The notes under the pieces were generated by a model that was not told the origin of the DNA, searched no databases, and was given only the letters and a program-made list of their open reading frames with translations. Positions 34,101-50,470 of a DNA stretch of 64,000 nucleotides are shown here, one piece after another (within the stretch, counting starts at the first letter, position 1; every line of letters starts with the position of its first letter). Source of the DNA: Pseudochrobactrum kiredjianiae. Its GTDB lineage: Bacteria > Pseudomonadota > Alphaproteobacteria > Rhizobiales > Rhizobiaceae. The translations under genes were made by a program, and so were the position numbers. The stretch is taken from the NCBI RefSeq assembly GCF_030362795.1, contig NZ_JAUCBM010000001.1, positions 1,054,001 to 1,118,000 on the forward strand, given 5' to 3'.

Positions 34101-34202
34101 TAATGATTACAGTCTTGCATCACCTTTCATGGTTCTGTAGTCAGAGGATATGCAGGTCCTGACAGTGCTGCCAGCTTGCAGAAAATTGCAGGAGAGTGCG
34201 GC

Positions 34203-35165
34203 ATGGCACAAATTATTTCCACGGATGTTTCTTCTTTAAAACTGGCTGCTGAGGTATTGGGCGCAGGCAAACTTGCTGCCTTGCCGACAGAGACTGTCTA
34301 CGGGCTGGCGGCGGATGCCACCAATGGCAGTGCGGTTGCCGGTATTTTTTCTGCCAAGGGACGGCCGCATTTCAATCCGCTGATTGCCCATATGGCGACA
34401 CTTGATATGGCTGAGCGCTATGTGGTGTTTGATGATCTCTCCCGTAAACTTGCAGAGAAATTCTGGCCGGGGCCGCTGACACTGGTATTACCTCTGCGTG
34501 AAGGCGCTGCAATTCATCCGCTGGTAACCGCGGGTCTCACAACTCTCGCCATTCGTATGCCGCGCGGGCCGATTGCTGAAATCATTGCCGCGCTTGATCG
34601 CCCGCTGGCAGCACCGAGCGCCAATAGCTCTGGTCGTATCAGTGCCACTTCGGCACAGGCGGTGCAGGATGATCTGGGCGCTAAGCTTGATCTGATTGTT
34701 GATGGCGGTGCTTGTGTTGTCGGGCTGGAATCCACCATTGTTAAAATTGAAAATGGTCAGGCCTATCTGCTGCGTCCGGGCGGGTTGGCGGCAGAAGAGA
34801 TTGAGGCTTTCATTGGTGAGCCGCTGCATCGTCTGGATCAGCGTGCGGCTATTCAGGCGCCGGGGATGATGGCGTCACATTATGCACCAGATGCCGCGAT
34901 GCGGTTGAATATTTCGGAAGTGTATGAAGGCGAAGCGCTACTTGCCTTTGGAGCGCAGCGAGCAACCGGTGCTGACAAAGCCGTTGCTGTTTTGAATTTA
35001 AGTCCTTCGGGCGATCTGCATGAAGCTGCCGTGCATTTGTTCGATTATATGAAGCGGCTGGATGCAGCAGGCGCGAAAACAATCGCCGTTGAGCCGGTGC
35101 CGCATCATGGCTTGGGCGAAGCAATTAATGATCGACTATCGCGCGCGGCTGCGCCGCGCGATTAG
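34203..35165 (+). CDS. L-threonylcarbamoyladenylate synthase (Sua5/YrdC type)
   Basis: 320 residues. Makes threonylcarbamoyl-AMP from threonine, bicarbonate and ATP for tRNA t6A modification. The N-terminal YrdC domain shows the basic pocket and SxN motif (LPTETVYGLAADA, KGRPHFNPLIAH, PSANSSGRIS), and the C-terminal Sua5 domain (about 220–320) begins at APGMMASHYAPDA. AGGAG before ATG 34203 sets the start; the frame is open to 34176. The last seven codons and stop are the first unit of a tandem repeat. The FAD oxidase follows 51 bp later. Confidence 0.93.
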   Translation: MAQIISTDVSSLKLAAEVLGAGKLAALPTETVYGLAADATNGSAVAGIFSAKGRPHFNPLIAHMATLDMAERYVVFDDLSRKLAEKFWPGPLTLVLPLREGAAIHPLVTAGLTTLAIRMPRGPIAEIIAALDRPLAAPSANSSGRISATSAQAVQDDLGAKLDLIVDGGACVVGLESTIVKIENGQAYLLRPGGLAAEEIEAFIGEPLHRLDQRAAIQAPGMMASHYAPDAAMRLNISEVYEGEALLAFGAQRATGADKAVAVLNLSPSGDLHEAAVHLFDYMKRLDAAGAKTIAVEPVPHHGLGEAINDRLSRAAAPRD

Positions 35166-35206
35166 TTGAATTTGGGCGGCTGCACCGCGTGACTAATTAG
35201 ATTTGG
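35145..35206 (+). repeat. Two-copy 31-bp tandem repeat of the Sua5 gene tail
   Basis: Copy 1 (from 35145) encodes AAAPRD plus stop TAG; copy 2 (from 35176) again encodes AAAPRD plus stop TAA in another frame. The four differences inside the coded part all fall at third codon positions and are synonymous. Both copies continue into TTxxATTTGG. Copy 2 lies in the gap before the FAD oxidase. Confidence 0.85.
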
Positions 35207-35216
35207 ACGGAAACAG

Positions 35217-36632
35217 ATGATGATGTCAGATGATTTGATTGCGCGTTTCACGGCAATTGTCGGTGAGAGAAACGCACTGCACGATCCGGTCGATCAGATT
35301 TCCTATTTGAGCGAGCCGCGTGATCTGTTTCATGGCCGCGCCGCTTTGGTTCTGCGCCCTGCAACGGTGGAGGAAGTCTCTGCCATTATGAAGCTGGCCT
35401 ATGAGACAGCAACACCTGTGGTGCCGCAGGGCGGCAATACCGGACTTGTCGGTGCGCAGCAGCCGGATACCAGCGGACGAGCCGTTATTCTCTCGCTGTC
35501 GCGGCTCAATCAAATCCGCAATATTGACACGACCGGCAATCTCGTCACGGTTGAAGCCGGTGTTATCCTGCAAAATTTGCAAGATGCTGTGCAGGATGCA
35601 GGACGGTTGTTTCCGTTGTCCTTGGGTGCAGAAGGTTCCTGCCAGATTGGCGGTAATCTCTCATCCAATGCGGGAGGCACGGCTGTGCTTGCCTATGGCA
35701 ATATGCGCGAATTATGCCTTGGTCTCGAAGTGGTGTTGCCTGACGGTCAGGTGCTGAACGACTTGCGCCGCGTGAAAAAAGACAATACCGGCTATGACCT
35801 GCGTGATCTGTTTATCGGAGCAGAAGGCACGCTTGGTGTTATCACTGCGGCGGTGCTGAAAATTCATCCGCAGCCGAAAGGCAAGGCGGTCGCCTATGTT
35901 GGATTGCAGTCGGTGCAAGATGTGGTGCAGCTTTTCCGTTTGGCGACCGATCAGGCAGGGCAGGCACTGACCGGTTTTGAACTGATGCCGCGTATTGGTA
36001 TGGAATTTATTCTGCGCCATATTGCGGAAGCACGTGACCCGCTGGAAAAGACCTATCCTTGGTATGTGCTGGCGGAGATTTCTTCTGCTCGTTCTGAGGC
36101 AGACGCACTGGAAATGCTGGAAGCAATCCTGAGTGAAGGTTTCGAGAGCGGAATGGTGCAAGATGCCGCCATTGCACAAAATGGTGCGCAGGCTGATCTG
36201 TTCTGGAAAATGCGCGAAGAGATGTCTCCGGCTCAGAAGCCGGAAGGCGGCTCAATCAAACATGATATCTCGGTACCTGTTGCCTCCATCCCTGCTTTCA
36301 TTGCAGAAGCCGCAGTGGCGGTTGAAGAGATGATCCCGTCGGCGCGTGTCGTTTGTTTCGGCCATATTGGCGATGGCAATTTGCATTATAATGTTTCGCA
36401 GCCGGTTGGTGCGGATAAGCAGGCTTTTCTGGGACGCTGGCACGAGCTGAACCACCGTATCCATACTATTGTCATGCGCTATAATGGCTCGATCTCCGCG
36501 GAGCATGGCATCGGCGCGTTAAAGCGTGAAGAATTGCGCGCGTTTAAACAGCCGCTGGCATTAGAACTGATGCGCCGTATTAAACAGGCTTTTGACCCGA
36601 AGAATATTATGAATCCGGACAAGCTGCTTTGA
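35217..36632 (+). CDS. FAD-linked 2-hydroxyacid oxidase/dehydrogenase (GlcD/D-2-HGDH-like)
   Basis: 471 residues of the vanillyl-alcohol oxidase superfamily. FAD-binding PCMH domain (about 35–215; VVPQGGNTGLVGAQQPD, LGAEGSCQIGGNLSSNAGG), then the FAD-oxidase C-terminal domain with GHIGDGNLHYNVSQP and SAEHGIGALKREEL, where the His residues sit at the flavin. Likely substrates are D-2-hydroxyglutarate, D-lactate or glycolate. Three ATGs in a row (35217, 35220, 35223) can start it. It follows the Sua5-type gene, as in other Brucellaceae as I recall, and ends at a hairpin. Confidence 0.9.
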   Translation: MMMSDDLIARFTAIVGERNALHDPVDQISYLSEPRDLFHGRAALVLRPATVEEVSAIMKLAYETATPVVPQGGNTGLVGAQQPDTSGRAVILSLSRLNQIRNIDTTGNLVTVEAGVILQNLQDAVQDAGRLFPLSLGAEGSCQIGGNLSSNAGGTAVLAYGNMRELCLGLEVVLPDGQVLNDLRRVKKDNTGYDLRDLFIGAEGTLGVITAAVLKIHPQPKGKAVAYVGLQSVQDVVQLFRLATDQAGQALTGFELMPRIGMEFILRHIAEARDPLEKTYPWYVLAEISSARSEADALEMLEAILSEGFESGMVQDAAIAQNGAQADLFWKMREEMSPAQKPEGGSIKHDISVPVASIPAFIAEAAVAVEEMIPSARVVCFGHIGDGNLHYNVSQPVGADKQAFLGRWHELNHRIHTIVMRYNGSISAEHGIGALKREELRAFKQPLALELMRRIKQAFDPKNIMNPDKLL

Positions 36633-36668
36633 GCTGAGCCTTGTTTCGATCTTTAAGATTTTAAACGC

Positions 36669-36702
36669 TGAGCCGTCGTTTCGTTAAGAAGCGGCGGCTC
36701 AA
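36669..36702 (+). terminator. Hairpin terminator after the FAD oxidase
   Basis: TGAGCCGTCG pairs, with G-T wobbles, with GCGGCGGCTCA around a T/A-rich loop. The following sequence AATTGTTAAG is only weakly T-rich. Confidence 0.7.
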
Positions 36703-37208
36703 TTGTTAAGATGAGCCCGTGTTACGCACCGCTCATCATAAACGAGCGGTAAATATCCACATTTTGAACCGGAAAATTGCGGTTAGCAAAAGATTGATAC
36801 GCAACAAGCGTGTTTAATGCGGATTTAATGTCCACAGGCGCAGCCTTAACAACTGGTTGCTGGGCTACAGCGAATTTCAGAGAATATTCAGAAATGAGAG
36901 CCTTTGCCTAAGTAAAAAGGCTCTGAAAAGGTACAAGCACCTCAGTTTGTTTAGCTCTTGTTAAAAATCATAAATATTTACCGGTTTGGTACGGTTAAGC
37001 TGTGTTTACCGGCCTTGCTGAAGTCTTAACTGTGGTTGGAATCTGTAAACCATTTTGCCAAAGACCGAAGTATTAACCCTGTCATTTAAGCAGATTGGTG
37101 ACTTGCATCAGCTATTCTTGCATTCAACGAGACCACAAAGGTCCGATAGAAAAAAAGAACCGACAGTAAAACAATAACAGCGGTTCTCAGAAGGTACAGG
37201 GCAAGAAA
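36703..37208. other. Intergenic region between the FAD oxidase and DUF6101 genes
   Basis: About 500 bp. On the minus strand a stop-to-stop frame of 61 codons (36725–36907, stop TAA at 36722–36724) has coding-like text (for example VVKAAPVDIKSALNTLVAYQ) but no ATG until four residues before its stop; only CTG, GTG or ATT could start it. A hairpin AGAGCCTTT/AAAGGCTCT lies at about 36896–36921. The rest is AT-rich and probably holds the promoter of the DUF6101 gene. Confidence 0.4.
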
Positions 37209-37787
37209 ATGATGAACCAGATGCTGGAAAAACAGGACAAACCAGTTTGGGCGAGCAGAGAGATCCGTCTCGATCCTTCGCAGTTCCCGCAGAGCATTTC
37301 TTATGCTTCAACGGGCGAGCAGGACGATGTGACCTTCACGATCAATGAACGTGGCGCAGTATTGCGACGTGTTCTGCCATCAAGCGGTTTGCCAATGTCT
37401 GTAGCGCTGCCAGCGCATGTATTTCTGGGCGTAACAGCGCGTGCAGTTGAGGATGAGAACGGTTTGATTACCGTGACACTGGAACTGATGCACGAAGACC
37501 CGCAAATGTCTGTGCCGCTGCTGGTTGCACATGATCTGGATGATGTGGCCGCAGATTGGCATGCATGGGCAAATGCCTACAAACTGCCGATGCTGCTGGT
37601 TGAAGCTGATGGTGTTGCGCGTCCGGTGCATGACACAATCGGCGGTGTGGCAGCTTCGGCCAGCACAGAGCGTCGTCAGGGACAGGAGCAGCGCCGTCGT
37701 CGCCCGCGCTTTCTGGCGCGACGTAAAACCGGTTCGCTGGGCGTGACTTTAAAGATTTCCGGCCGTGAGATTATCTCACGTGTTTAA
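37209..37787 (+). CDS. DUF6101-family protein
   Basis: 192 residues matching the alphaproteobacterial DUF6101 family as I remember it: REIRLDPSQFP near the start, a central VALPAHVFLGVTAR block, DDVAADWHAWANAYKLPMLLVEADG, and a basic C-terminus (RRQGQEQRRRRPRFLARRKTG). No signal peptide or membrane segment. The basic tail would suit nucleic-acid or polyanion contact, but no function is known. The last codons (GREIISRV plus stop) form the first unit of a decaying 29–30-bp tandem repeat that continues past the gene. Confidence 0.8.
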   Translation: MMNQMLEKQDKPVWASREIRLDPSQFPQSISYASTGEQDDVTFTINERGAVLRRVLPSSGLPMSVALPAHVFLGVTARAVEDENGLITVTLELMHEDPQMSVPLLVAHDLDDVAADWHAWANAYKLPMLLVEADGVARPVHDTIGGVAASASTERRQGQEQRRRRPRFLARRKTGSLGVTLKISGREIISRV

Positions 37788-37940
37788 TAAACCGGAGATT
37801 ATTGCTCGCGTTTGAAAAAAAGCTGAGATTATTGCGCGGGTTTGAAAAAGCGGAATAATTGTTCGCGGGTGAACGACATTGAAATCACTGCTCGCGGGAA
37901 TGTGAATGGCCGTAATAGTGCTGCAGGTATAAAAATTAAG
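37761..37940 (+). repeat. Decaying 29–30-bp tandem repeat of the DUF6101 gene tail
   Basis: Unit 1 (37761–37790) is the end of the gene and encodes REIISRV plus TAA. Units 2 and 3 (from 37791 and 37821) encode PEIIARV and AEIIARV, each with TGA, in one common alternative frame. Units 4 and 5 (from about 37851 and 37880) keep the TTCGCGGG/CTCGCGGG core but have lost the reading frame, and a possible sixth is barely recognisable. Most differences between the first three are synonymous. Confidence 0.85.
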
Positions 37941-37994
37941 AATATTACGCGAAAGTGCGAATTGAATATGTGATCTCCAGTCACAGAACATGCG

Positions 37995-38033
37995 AAGACC
38001 GTATATCTGCGAAGATATACGGTCTTTTTTTAT
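37995..38033 (+). terminator. Rho-independent terminator after DUF6101
   Basis: AAGACCGTATATC pairs with GATATACGGTCTT around TGCGAA and is followed by a T-run. The convergent enoyl-CoA hydratase gene ends right at its edge. Confidence 0.92.
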
Positions 38034-38792
38034 TCATTTTTTGCGGGAGAGGAATGCGCCGACGGCCTGCGCGGTTTCTGCTGATTTCAGACGTTCTGCA
38101 AAAATCTGCGCTTCACGATCAATACGCTCGGTTAGCGGTTCAGGCTGGCTTTTCAGCAATTTACGGGTCAGTTGCAGAGCTGTTGGCGGGCGTGCTGCCA
38201 GCTTCTGCGCAGCGTTCAACACTTCAGATTCCAGCGCATCTTCCGCCACAATACGCCAGACAAGACCGGCTTCAAGCGCCTGTTCAGCGCTCATAGCTTC
38301 TCCCATTGCCAGCAGAGCAAAGGCACGCTGATGACCCATGATTCCGGGAGCAAGCAGTGTTGAACCTGCCTCCGGTACCAGTCCGAGATCAACAAACGGG
38401 GTGTGGAAAACAGCGCGCGGCGTAGCAAAAGTCAGGTCGCAATGCAGATTTAGCGTCGTGCCAACGCCAATCGCCAGACCATCAACGCCTGAAATCAGAG
38501 GTTTGCGGGATTGGGATAATGTGTGCAGGAAGTCGACAATTTCGCCGCCGAGACTACCCTGAGACAAAGCCGCAGTCATAAAGTCCTGCATATCATTACC
38601 GGATGAGAATGCACCGGGCAGACCGAAAATTACGTTGACGCGGATATTGTCATCGCTGTCAGCCTGTTTCAAAGCCTCGGCAATGCCGTGATACATGTCA
38701 CGTGTGATGGCGTTTTTCTTATCCGGACGGTTCATACGGATAATCTGCACGGCATCGTGGCGTTCTGTTTTAATAAAGTCGCTCATCGTCAA
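38034..38792 (-). CDS. Enoyl-CoA hydratase/isomerase family protein
   Basis: 252 residues of the crotonase fold. MNRPDKKNAITRDMY near the N-terminus; the oxyanion-hole segment GAFSSGNDMQDF; and KPLISGVDGLAIGVGTTL with the second oxyanion glycine. The usual catalytic glutamates are not both obvious, so hydratase versus isomerase is open. It overlaps the upstream acyl-CoA dehydrogenase gene by 4 bp, so the two are translationally coupled and probably act in sequence on the same acyl-CoA. Confidence 0.88.
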   Translation of the reverse strand: MTMSDFIKTERHDAVQIIRMNRPDKKNAITRDMYHGIAEALKQADSDDNIRVNVIFGLPGAFSSGNDMQDFMTAALSQGSLGGEIVDFLHTLSQSRKPLISGVDGLAIGVGTTLNLHCDLTFATPRAVFHTPFVDLGLVPEAGSTLLAPGIMGHQRAFALLAMGEAMSAEQALEAGLVWRIVAEDALESEVLNAAQKLAARPPTALQLTRKLLKSQPEPLTERIDREAQIFAERLKSAETAQAVGAFLSRKK

Positions 38793-49120: not shown

Positions 49121-49312
49121 AGAACATATCAACGGATTTGTGCAGTATTTCAAACTTCGCGGCGCAGTTAAGCGGAATAGCGTTAATTGCGTTGGTTTTT
49201 TGTGTGCCGGTCTCTCTGCTGTTTGACCACTGCTTAAAAGACGAATAGAAACAGATCACCAATTTGAAATTAAAATGAACCGCACAGAACCGGTTCAATC
49301 TTGGGGTTTTCT

Positions 49313-50404
49313 ATGTCGCATAACAGCTTTGGCCATCTTTTCCGTGTGACGACCTGGGGCGAAAGTCACGGTCCGGCACTCGGTTGCATTATTGATGGCT
49401 GCCCTCCGGGTATTCAATTCACCGAAGCTGAAATTCAGACCTATCTTGATAAGCGCAAGCCAGGTCAGTCGAAATATACCACGCAGCGTCGCGAACCGGA
49501 TCAGGTACGGGTGCTGTCCGGTGTGCTCACCAGTGAAGATGGTGTGATGACCACGACCGGTACGCCGATTTCTATGATGATTGAGAACGTCGATCAGCGT
49601 TCCAAGGACTATGGCGAGATTGCCCGCCAATATCGTCCGGGTCATGCGGATTATGCTTACGATGTGAAATACGGCCTGCGTGATTATCGCGGCGGTGGTC
49701 GTTCTTCCGCGCGTGAGACCGCTGCTCGTGTGGCTGCCGGTGCCATTGCCCGCAAAGTTGTGCCGGGTCTGACCGTGCGCGCTGCATTGGTGGGGATGGG
49801 TATTCACAAGATTGATCGTTCCCGCTGGGATTGGGCAGAAGTGGATAATAATCCGTTCTTCACGCCGGATGCCGGTTCGGTCGAACTGTTTGCAGAATAT
49901 CTGGATGGTATCCGCAAAAGCGGTTCATCTATCGGTGCGGTTATTGAGGTTGTGGTCGAAGGTGTGCCTGCCGGTATCGGTGCGCCGCTTTATGCCAAGC
50001 TGGATCAGGATATTGCTTCACATCTGATGTCGATCCCCGCCGTTAAAGGCGTGGAAATCGGCAATGGTTTTGAGGCTGCAACGCTGACCGGTGAGCAGAA
50101 TGCCGATGAAATGCGCATTGATGCGGATGGTAATCCGGTGTTTCTGTCGAATAATGCCGGTGGTATTCTCGGCGGTATCGCAACCGGTGCGCCGATTGTT
50201 GCGCGTTTTGCCGTGAAGCCGACCTCGTCCATTCTCACCACGCGCCGTTCGATTGATGTGGATAAAAACGAGGTGGATGTGATGACCAAAGGCCGTCATG
50301 ACCCTTGCGTTGGCATTCGCGCTGTGCCGATCGGCGAAGCTATGCTGGCCTGCGCGATTGCAGACCACTACCTCAGGCACCGCGGCCAAACTGGCCGCGT
50401 CTAA
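49313..50404 (+). CDS. aroC: Chorismate synthase
   Basis: Last step of the shikimate pathway, EPSP to chorismate, with reduced FMN. 363 residues. Signatures [18 protein letters not shown] near the N-terminus, [18 protein letters not shown] in the middle and [13 protein letters not shown] near the end. Start at ATG 49313. The last six codons plus stop are the first unit of a 29-bp tandem repeat that runs into the gap before ribB. Confidence 0.97.
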
Positions 50405-50470
50405 AATAATACGGTCAGACTGGCCGCGTCTGAGAGTTATCATCTAAGCTGGCCGCGTCTGATATTGGTG
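50382..50470 (+). repeat. 29-bp tandem repeat of the aroC tail
   Basis: The core CTGGCCGCGTCTRA begins at 50391, 50420 and 50449. Unit 1 encodes GQTGRV plus TAA (the real end of aroC); unit 2 encodes GQTGRV plus TGA in another frame, with a synonymous Gln codon; unit 3 keeps only GRV plus TGA. A GGCCAGACC remnant follows. Confidence 0.88.

Follow-up and report, generated by a model that had tools for sequence, protein, structure and literature searches.

Why would the end of a bacterial gene, stop codon included, be repeated in the DNA behind it, in copies that are noncoding and that still read like coding sequence? The question arises at a DUF6101 gene (PF19596) in a 64-kb stretch of the Pseudochrobactrum kiredjianiae genome (positions 1,054,001 to 1,118,000 of contig NZ_JAUCBM010000001.1; hereafter the window), where the last six codons and the stop codon are followed by further units of the same kind. 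An earlier note made from the sequence alone had described this tandem array, and it is real: it can be read from the letters, is detected by Tandem Repeats Finder (TRF; 37767-37867, period 28, 3.6 copies, score 93) and is recovered by an ungapped repeat search as five copies, the spacings of which (28, 30, 27 and 29 bp) are somewhat wider in range than the 29-30 bp originally given. Units 1 to 3 are REIISRV-TAA, PEIIARV-TGA and AEIIARV-TGA as described, in an array of at least five units. The decay ascribed to units 4 and 5 holds for unit 5 and only partly for unit 4, which can still be read as GIIVRG-TGA; within the window, decay grows with distance from the gene.

The array is not peculiar to this genome. 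The DUF6101 gene is present in six of seven Pseudochrobactrum genomes (the seventh, in which no match was found, is 61% complete), and all six carry tail copies, each with at least two units and with two to four readable ones. Across the genus the readable units spell E-I-I-[SAVT]-R-V-stop, the sole exception being the GIIVRG-stop of the window, while none of the 20 DUF6101 loci fetched from other genera reaches a score of 12 (best 7.5). A record titled Bacillus subtilis strain SK6B4 (L001, JAHREI010000001.1) holds a DUF6101 locus with 98% protein identity to that of the window and is probably misnamed.

Tail copies at gene ends across the genus

Tail arrays form a genus-wide class that the earlier note had overlooked, together with two further members in the window itself and the many stop-codon hairpins treated below. 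We sampled 700 kb of the window's own genome (G000) in addition to the window, four sister species (400 kb each) and, as controls, two other genera and E. coli K-12 (200 kb each). Genes were taken as the longest non-overlapping open reading frames (ORFs) of at least 90 amino acids, not from annotation, and each Pseudochrobactrum species was represented by one genome throughout (G001, G002, G003, G004 and G006 besides G000). At a score of at least 14 and a spacing of 22-40 bp, 34 of 2054 gene ends in the five species have a tail copy (about 1.7%; 12/661 in the own genome, then 5/349, 7/355, 5/344 and 5/345), counts that are not independent across species since orthologous loci recur. By the same criterion copies were found at 3 of 2051 gene starts (2/660, 0/348, 0/355, 0/344 and 1/344) and at none of 523 gene ends in the control genomes (0/174, 0/165 and 0/184). 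A wider scan (spacing 15-179, score at least 14) picks up one tail in G039 (1/174; score 16 at spacing 17) and one start in G307 (1/163; score 15.5), and its mid-gene controls yield 0/503 in the own genome, 0/264 in G002, 1/127 in G039 and 1/121 in G307. TRF gives a concordant picture: arrays with a period of 22-40 lie at 20 tails and one start in the five species, with four wholly within the 284 kb of noncoding DNA and 18 inside genes, as against one tail (G039) and seven inside genes in the control genomes.

In the cases compared, the repeated tail comprises 3 to 11 codons, the stop codon and some following bases, and the copies stand 25-71 bp apart. The units differ in sequence from gene to gene, and their hosts include housekeeping genes, by Pfam those for Sua5, chorismate synthase, signal peptidase II and prephenate dehydratase. 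The Sua5 and chorismate synthase arrays lie in the window (Table 1); judged by eye, the latter ranges from two to five or more units among genomes.

Three side observations come from the sampled DNA. Two convergent genes (G000:C1:364890-366165, L059) each have a tail array, both within their common gap of 109 bp. A TTCACGTGAAACA stretch past a gene stop (G000:C1:144466-145794 and orthologs) is repeated after another 49-50 bp in each of the five species sampled and gave rise to false tail echoes. A 59-bp noncoding tandem repeat is common to two species in opposite orientation (L041, 18141-18346; L115, 2000-2163).

Codon-position signature and probable role exchange

The copies differ from the tails they repeat in the manner of coding sequence. 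When the nearest spare unit is compared with the real tail, one species per locus, at 16 loci, the two differ at 10 of 102 first, 6 of 102 second and 37 of 102 third codon positions (10%, 6% and 36%), at 6 of 48 stop bases and at 38 of 96 of the first six bases past the stop (40%). These are the loci of a set of 18 hand-compiled pairs, left ends trimmed to the aligned stretch, minus HRVSE and REA; in the HRVSE pair unit 1 is compared with unit 3, since units 1 and 2 are identical. All 18 loci together yield 36 synonymous against 20 non-synonymous differences (36/56, a synonymous share of 0.64), and all seven changed stops are still stops. In simulations that let the spare drift unconstrained and keep the real tail under perfect purifying selection (transition weights 1, 2, 4 and 8, 400 runs each), the mean synonymous share is 0.30-0.36, a share of 0.64 is reached in 0 of 400 runs at every weight, and only 0 to 2.25% of runs are free of stop-to-sense change. 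We therefore reject a neutrally drifting spare, on the strength of the synonymous share and the retention of stops. The claim that the DUF6101 units differ almost only synonymously does not hold for units 1 and 2, with two synonymous and two non-synonymous base differences (TCA/GCT) besides TAA to TGA; what stands is the third-position bias over 16-18 loci, and with it the comparison against a neutral duplication model that the earlier note had set as a check.

With the five species pooled and orthologs kept, the differences number 22 at position 1, 13 at position 2 and 78 at position 3, and the stops comprise 31 unchanged, nine stop-to-stop and seven stop-to-sense cases. The last seven are not counted as tail copies: five are the TTCACGTGAAACA motif, one per species, one is the 59-bp repeat and one comes from the DUF6101 array, for which units 2 and 3 set the scoring register. 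The signature is strongest at a Fur-family gene, where the VDVIVRLRRKD copy shows synonymous to non-synonymous ratios of 6:1 in G000, 7:0 in G003 and 6:0 in G006; it has a one-base deletion in G001, is decayed in G004 and is absent from G002. By eye, a stretch between copies 1 and 2 at this locus (L136, L137, L139, L141) inverse-complements part of copy 1 (GTGCGGT / ACCGCAC).

Moreover, what is a spare copy in one species can be the actual gene end in a related one. At 9 of 16 loci (the set without HRVSE and SGLA) and in 32 of 426 ordered species pairs, the real tail of another species is matched better by a spare unit than by the real tail of the spare's own host gene; each comparison takes the best of 132 offsets, so that small margins are weak. 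The last unit of a peptidase gene in G003 matches the real tail of G001 at 31/32 positions and that of G006 at 32/32, while the real tails share 15-16/32, and margins are also wide for the ALADRL tail (28 vs 10), Sua5 (30 vs 23-26) and prephenate dehydratase (28 vs 23). Sua5 has a single tail in G002; G006 and G004 have a first unit ending in E and a second ending in D, and in both, the second unit agrees at every base with a 35-nt stretch of G000 at its real tail, whereas identity to the window in the surrounding 400 bp is 84% and 80%. The third-position bias and these matches agree with the earlier suggestion that each copy was once a selected C-terminus, or else with its having been copied from one. 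In part, then, the earlier interpretation is borne out.

Table 1. Tail arrays and neighbouring features in the window (coordinates of the window)
Feature	Position	Strand	Basis or remark
DUF6101 gene (PF19596), array host	37209..37787	+	Pfam 283.9 bits; ORF
DUF6101 unit 1, the real tail, EIISRV-TAA	37767..37787	+	sequence
DUF6101 unit 2, EIIARV-TGA, +28, phase 1	37795..37815	+	sequence
DUF6101 unit 3, EIIARV-TGA, +58, phase 1	37825..37845	+	sequence
DUF6101 unit 4, partly decayed, GIIVRG-TGA, +85, phase 1	37852..37872	+	sequence
DUF6101 unit 5, decayed	37881..37896	+	ungapped repeat family D1
Perfect palindrome CGTGAGA-TTA-TCTCACG within the DUF6101 coding tail	37764..37780	+	relatives have CGCGAGATTATCTCGCG or CGCGAAATTATTTCGCG, paired changes
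Terminator-like hairpin and T run between two convergent genes, separate from the array	37994..38027	+	pattern scan
Sua5/threonylcarbamoyl-AMP synthase gene, tail AAPRD-TAG at 35145-35165	34176..35165	+	Pfam
Sua5 tail, second copy, AAPRD-TAA, +31; three codon differences, all synonymous, TAG to TAA	35176..35196	+	TRF, sequence
Sua5 tail palindrome CGCGCGGC-TGC-GCCGCGCG	35142..35160	+	sequence
Chorismate synthase gene, tail GQTGRV-TAA at 50384-50404	49301..50404	+	Pfam
Chorismate synthase tail, second copy, GQTGRV-TGA, +29; codon differences only synonymous	50413..50433	+	sequence
Chorismate synthase tail, third, partial copy, ending AGRV-TGA, +58	50442..50462	+	read from letters

Proposed turnover of tail units and its rivals

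We believe, with a probability of roughly 0.55, that tail units, often with hairpins, are born and die, and that a spare takes over as the true C-terminus once the unit ahead of it is lost. A copy would arise behind the stop, leaving the protein unaffected, and units would be gained and lost by slippage, by template switching at a stop-codon hairpin or by unequal exchange, within the lineage or with DNA of related strains. A lineage would survive such a loss only where the following unit still specifies a workable end with its stop codon. In this way units would enter and leave coding service and keep the coding signature, while those long unserved would decay. The arrays, their clustering at gene 3' ends, the coding signature and the matches between spares and real tails of different species are observed; the route of mutation, the direction of change and the preservation of spares through exposure by loss are what we infer here. 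More tentatively, the arrays might constitute a genome-wide reserve of replacement C-termini, in which untranslated spares are under codon-level selection through recurrent loss of the front unit; the spare tails of the earlier note remain a live idea, as does the serial capture of homologous 3' ends.

Several observations weigh against turnover. Copies at eight loci are decayed or undecided, with synonymous to non-synonymous ratios of 0:5 (MRFAHDGV), 2:3 (EAASKPTK), 2:2 (DUF6101), 0:2 (HRVSE), 1:2 (SGLA), 0:1 (QKCR), 0:1 (REA) and 1:1 (SQVLTSK). Fast turnover should homogenise the units, yet many differ by about 20%. Several of the role-exchange margins are no more than 1-3 bases and weak, the 18 pairs were compiled by hand from one species per locus, and with one genome per species no within-species polymorphism was seen. 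The strangest point is that some noncoding and long-lived copies change solely synonymously: copy 2 of the Fur-family gene, noncoding wherever seen, differs between G003 and G006 at seven bases, all of them synonymous, which simple turnover does not explain. Nor does turnover reach as far as the cause of the concentration at tails, the restriction to this genus among the sampled genomes or the period of about 30 bp. SbcD loss was considered as a candidate cause, on which the profile TIGR00619 says little: only 2 of 41 genomes of the family pass its cut-off, and a single weak match occurs in the own genome.

Two serious rivals, which may act together with turnover, are a role in RNA structure and capture between strains. 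On the former, the units would be tandem stop-codon stem-loops selected for termination or mRNA protection, their coding look being incidental, since the coding tail forms the left arm of the hairpin. Near the stop, 9 of 18 array loci have a perfect stem of at least 6, as compared to 80 of 661 ORF ends in the own genome (at least 5: 12/18 vs 197/661; at least 4: 16/18 vs 452/661), and at a gene with an AAE tail synonymous changes in the coding arm are mirrored in the arm past the stop (GGAGCCGC/GCGGCTCC, GGTGCGGCAG/CTGCCGCACC, GGTGCTGCAG/CTGCAGCACC, GGTGCCGCA/TGCGGCACC), with the stem partly broken in G001. For units of our own choosing, those of other length being omitted, pairing exceeds nearly all shuffles: 85.3% of cells are paired in 10 units of the AAE tail, a level reached by 0 of 500 shuffles (by 5 for the covariation score), and 85.7% in 8 DUF6101 units, reached by 8 of 500 (by 6 for the covariation score). 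Related sequences can, however, beat shuffles on such measures without any structure, and at both loci further pair types are no higher than in shuffles and pairs changed on both sides are not clearly so (43 and 202 of 500 as high). Intrinsic termination has been reported to be induced by hairpin clusters, poly A/U trails not being necessary (PMC8355165). Our pattern scan for intrinsic terminators, which consist of a GC hairpin and a T run behind it, flags the hairpin of DUF6101 unit 1 (tail TGTTTAATAA), its strong candidate being the separate hairpin of Table 1. But a terminator would be odd where a co-directional gene follows closely, as it does within 51-136 bp after 8 of the 11 arrays, among 17 listed in the own genome, that have such a gene next. 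A stem of 6 is missing from half of the array loci, and we found no general excess of stop-codon hairpins across genes at large. Moreover, DUF6101 units 2 and 3 of the window are, by eye, mostly stemless and still keep EIIARV-stop, and structure gives no preference for third-position changes in noncoding units. We consider structure rather unlikely. Rfam, searched over 34900-38200 and hence without the chorismate synthase array, gave no match at gathering score; outside the arrays a sub-threshold twister-P3 match lies on the minus strand (36938-37002; 25.4 bits, gathering score 39.9).

In the second rival, unequal homologous recombination sets a diverged, already selected tail beside the resident one, the synonymous differences having accrued while both were real tails in separate lineages. 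The matches of spares to other species' real tails fit this, in particular the Sua5 unit that is identical between G000 and the spares of G006 and G004 amid diverged flanks. Vertical turnover, however, yields the same data, and copy 2 of the Fur-family gene is 5-8 bases from every sampled real tail, those tails being 2-5 apart among themselves. Its origin in another genus was considered and rejected: the real tails of six relatives, belonging to five other genera, end differently. Capture as the explanation is improbable in our view.

Plain tandem slippage, neutrally tolerated past stop codons since the protein is left unaltered, would be in keeping with the decay of the window's units away from the gene. 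Template switching is reported to create and keep hairpins and, without selection, to make paired changes and invert loops (PMC8794818, PMC8604942), and the arrays show the same paired changes in both arms and a loop inverted between identical arms (GTAA in G000, TTAC in G001). It accounts for the hairpins but not for tail-centred tandem copies or the codon bias. The synonymous share, the retention of stops and the preference for tails over noncoding DNA speak against neutral slippage, which we regard as very improbable. A reserve ending for ribosomes whose frame slips close to the end of the gene, as proposed earlier from the +1 frame of the window's DUF6101 units 2 and 3 (and also 4), is hardly credible, for all three phases occur (0:4, 1:8 and 2:4 over 16 loci, and all of them for DUF6101 among six species), and that frame, described as open from inside the gene, is open only from 37753 (+1 stops at 37744 and 37750), so that a slip within the last 11-12 codons alone reaches unit 2, whose TGA blocks unit 3. 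Remnants of 3'-end-targeting integration (att sites) find no support, as the gene-specific copies are too close together for an insert, although no search for integrase genes was made.

Relation to known repeats and implications

In form the tail arrays are of the minisatellite or variable-number tandem repeat (VNTR) kind: like bacterial minisatellites, they consist of head-to-tail units of about 30 bp, within the 10-100 bp of that class, and vary in copy number between genomes. What is new, and sets them apart, is that they sit at gene 3' ends and consist of gene-specific, stop-spanning units that have diverged with a codon-position signature. MIRUs (mycobacterial interspersed repetitive units) are likewise tandem repeats between genes, touching stop and start codons. 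They are a single dispersed family of shared sequence, whereas each tail array is built of its own gene's tail. The tandem repeats of archaeal Borgs are described as perfect, A-enriched and about half inside ORFs (PMC9879509); they resemble tail arrays in that repeat abundance is specific to the element and differ in that tail-array units are diverged, mainly by synonymous changes. No description of such arrays appeared in the titles and abstract beginnings among the literature matches listed, a coverage from which subscription journals are mostly absent.

A codon-position bias is usually taken to indicate current translation, a rule that is broken by noncoding copies evolving like coding sequence. 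Tail arrays would offer a route for changing several C-terminal residues at once. If the turnover proposed here is true, selection on what a sequence becomes after recurrent mutation would be measurable, and this in housekeeping genes; if the arrays are indeed a reserve, selection would preserve protein-coding information in DNA that is currently untranslated.
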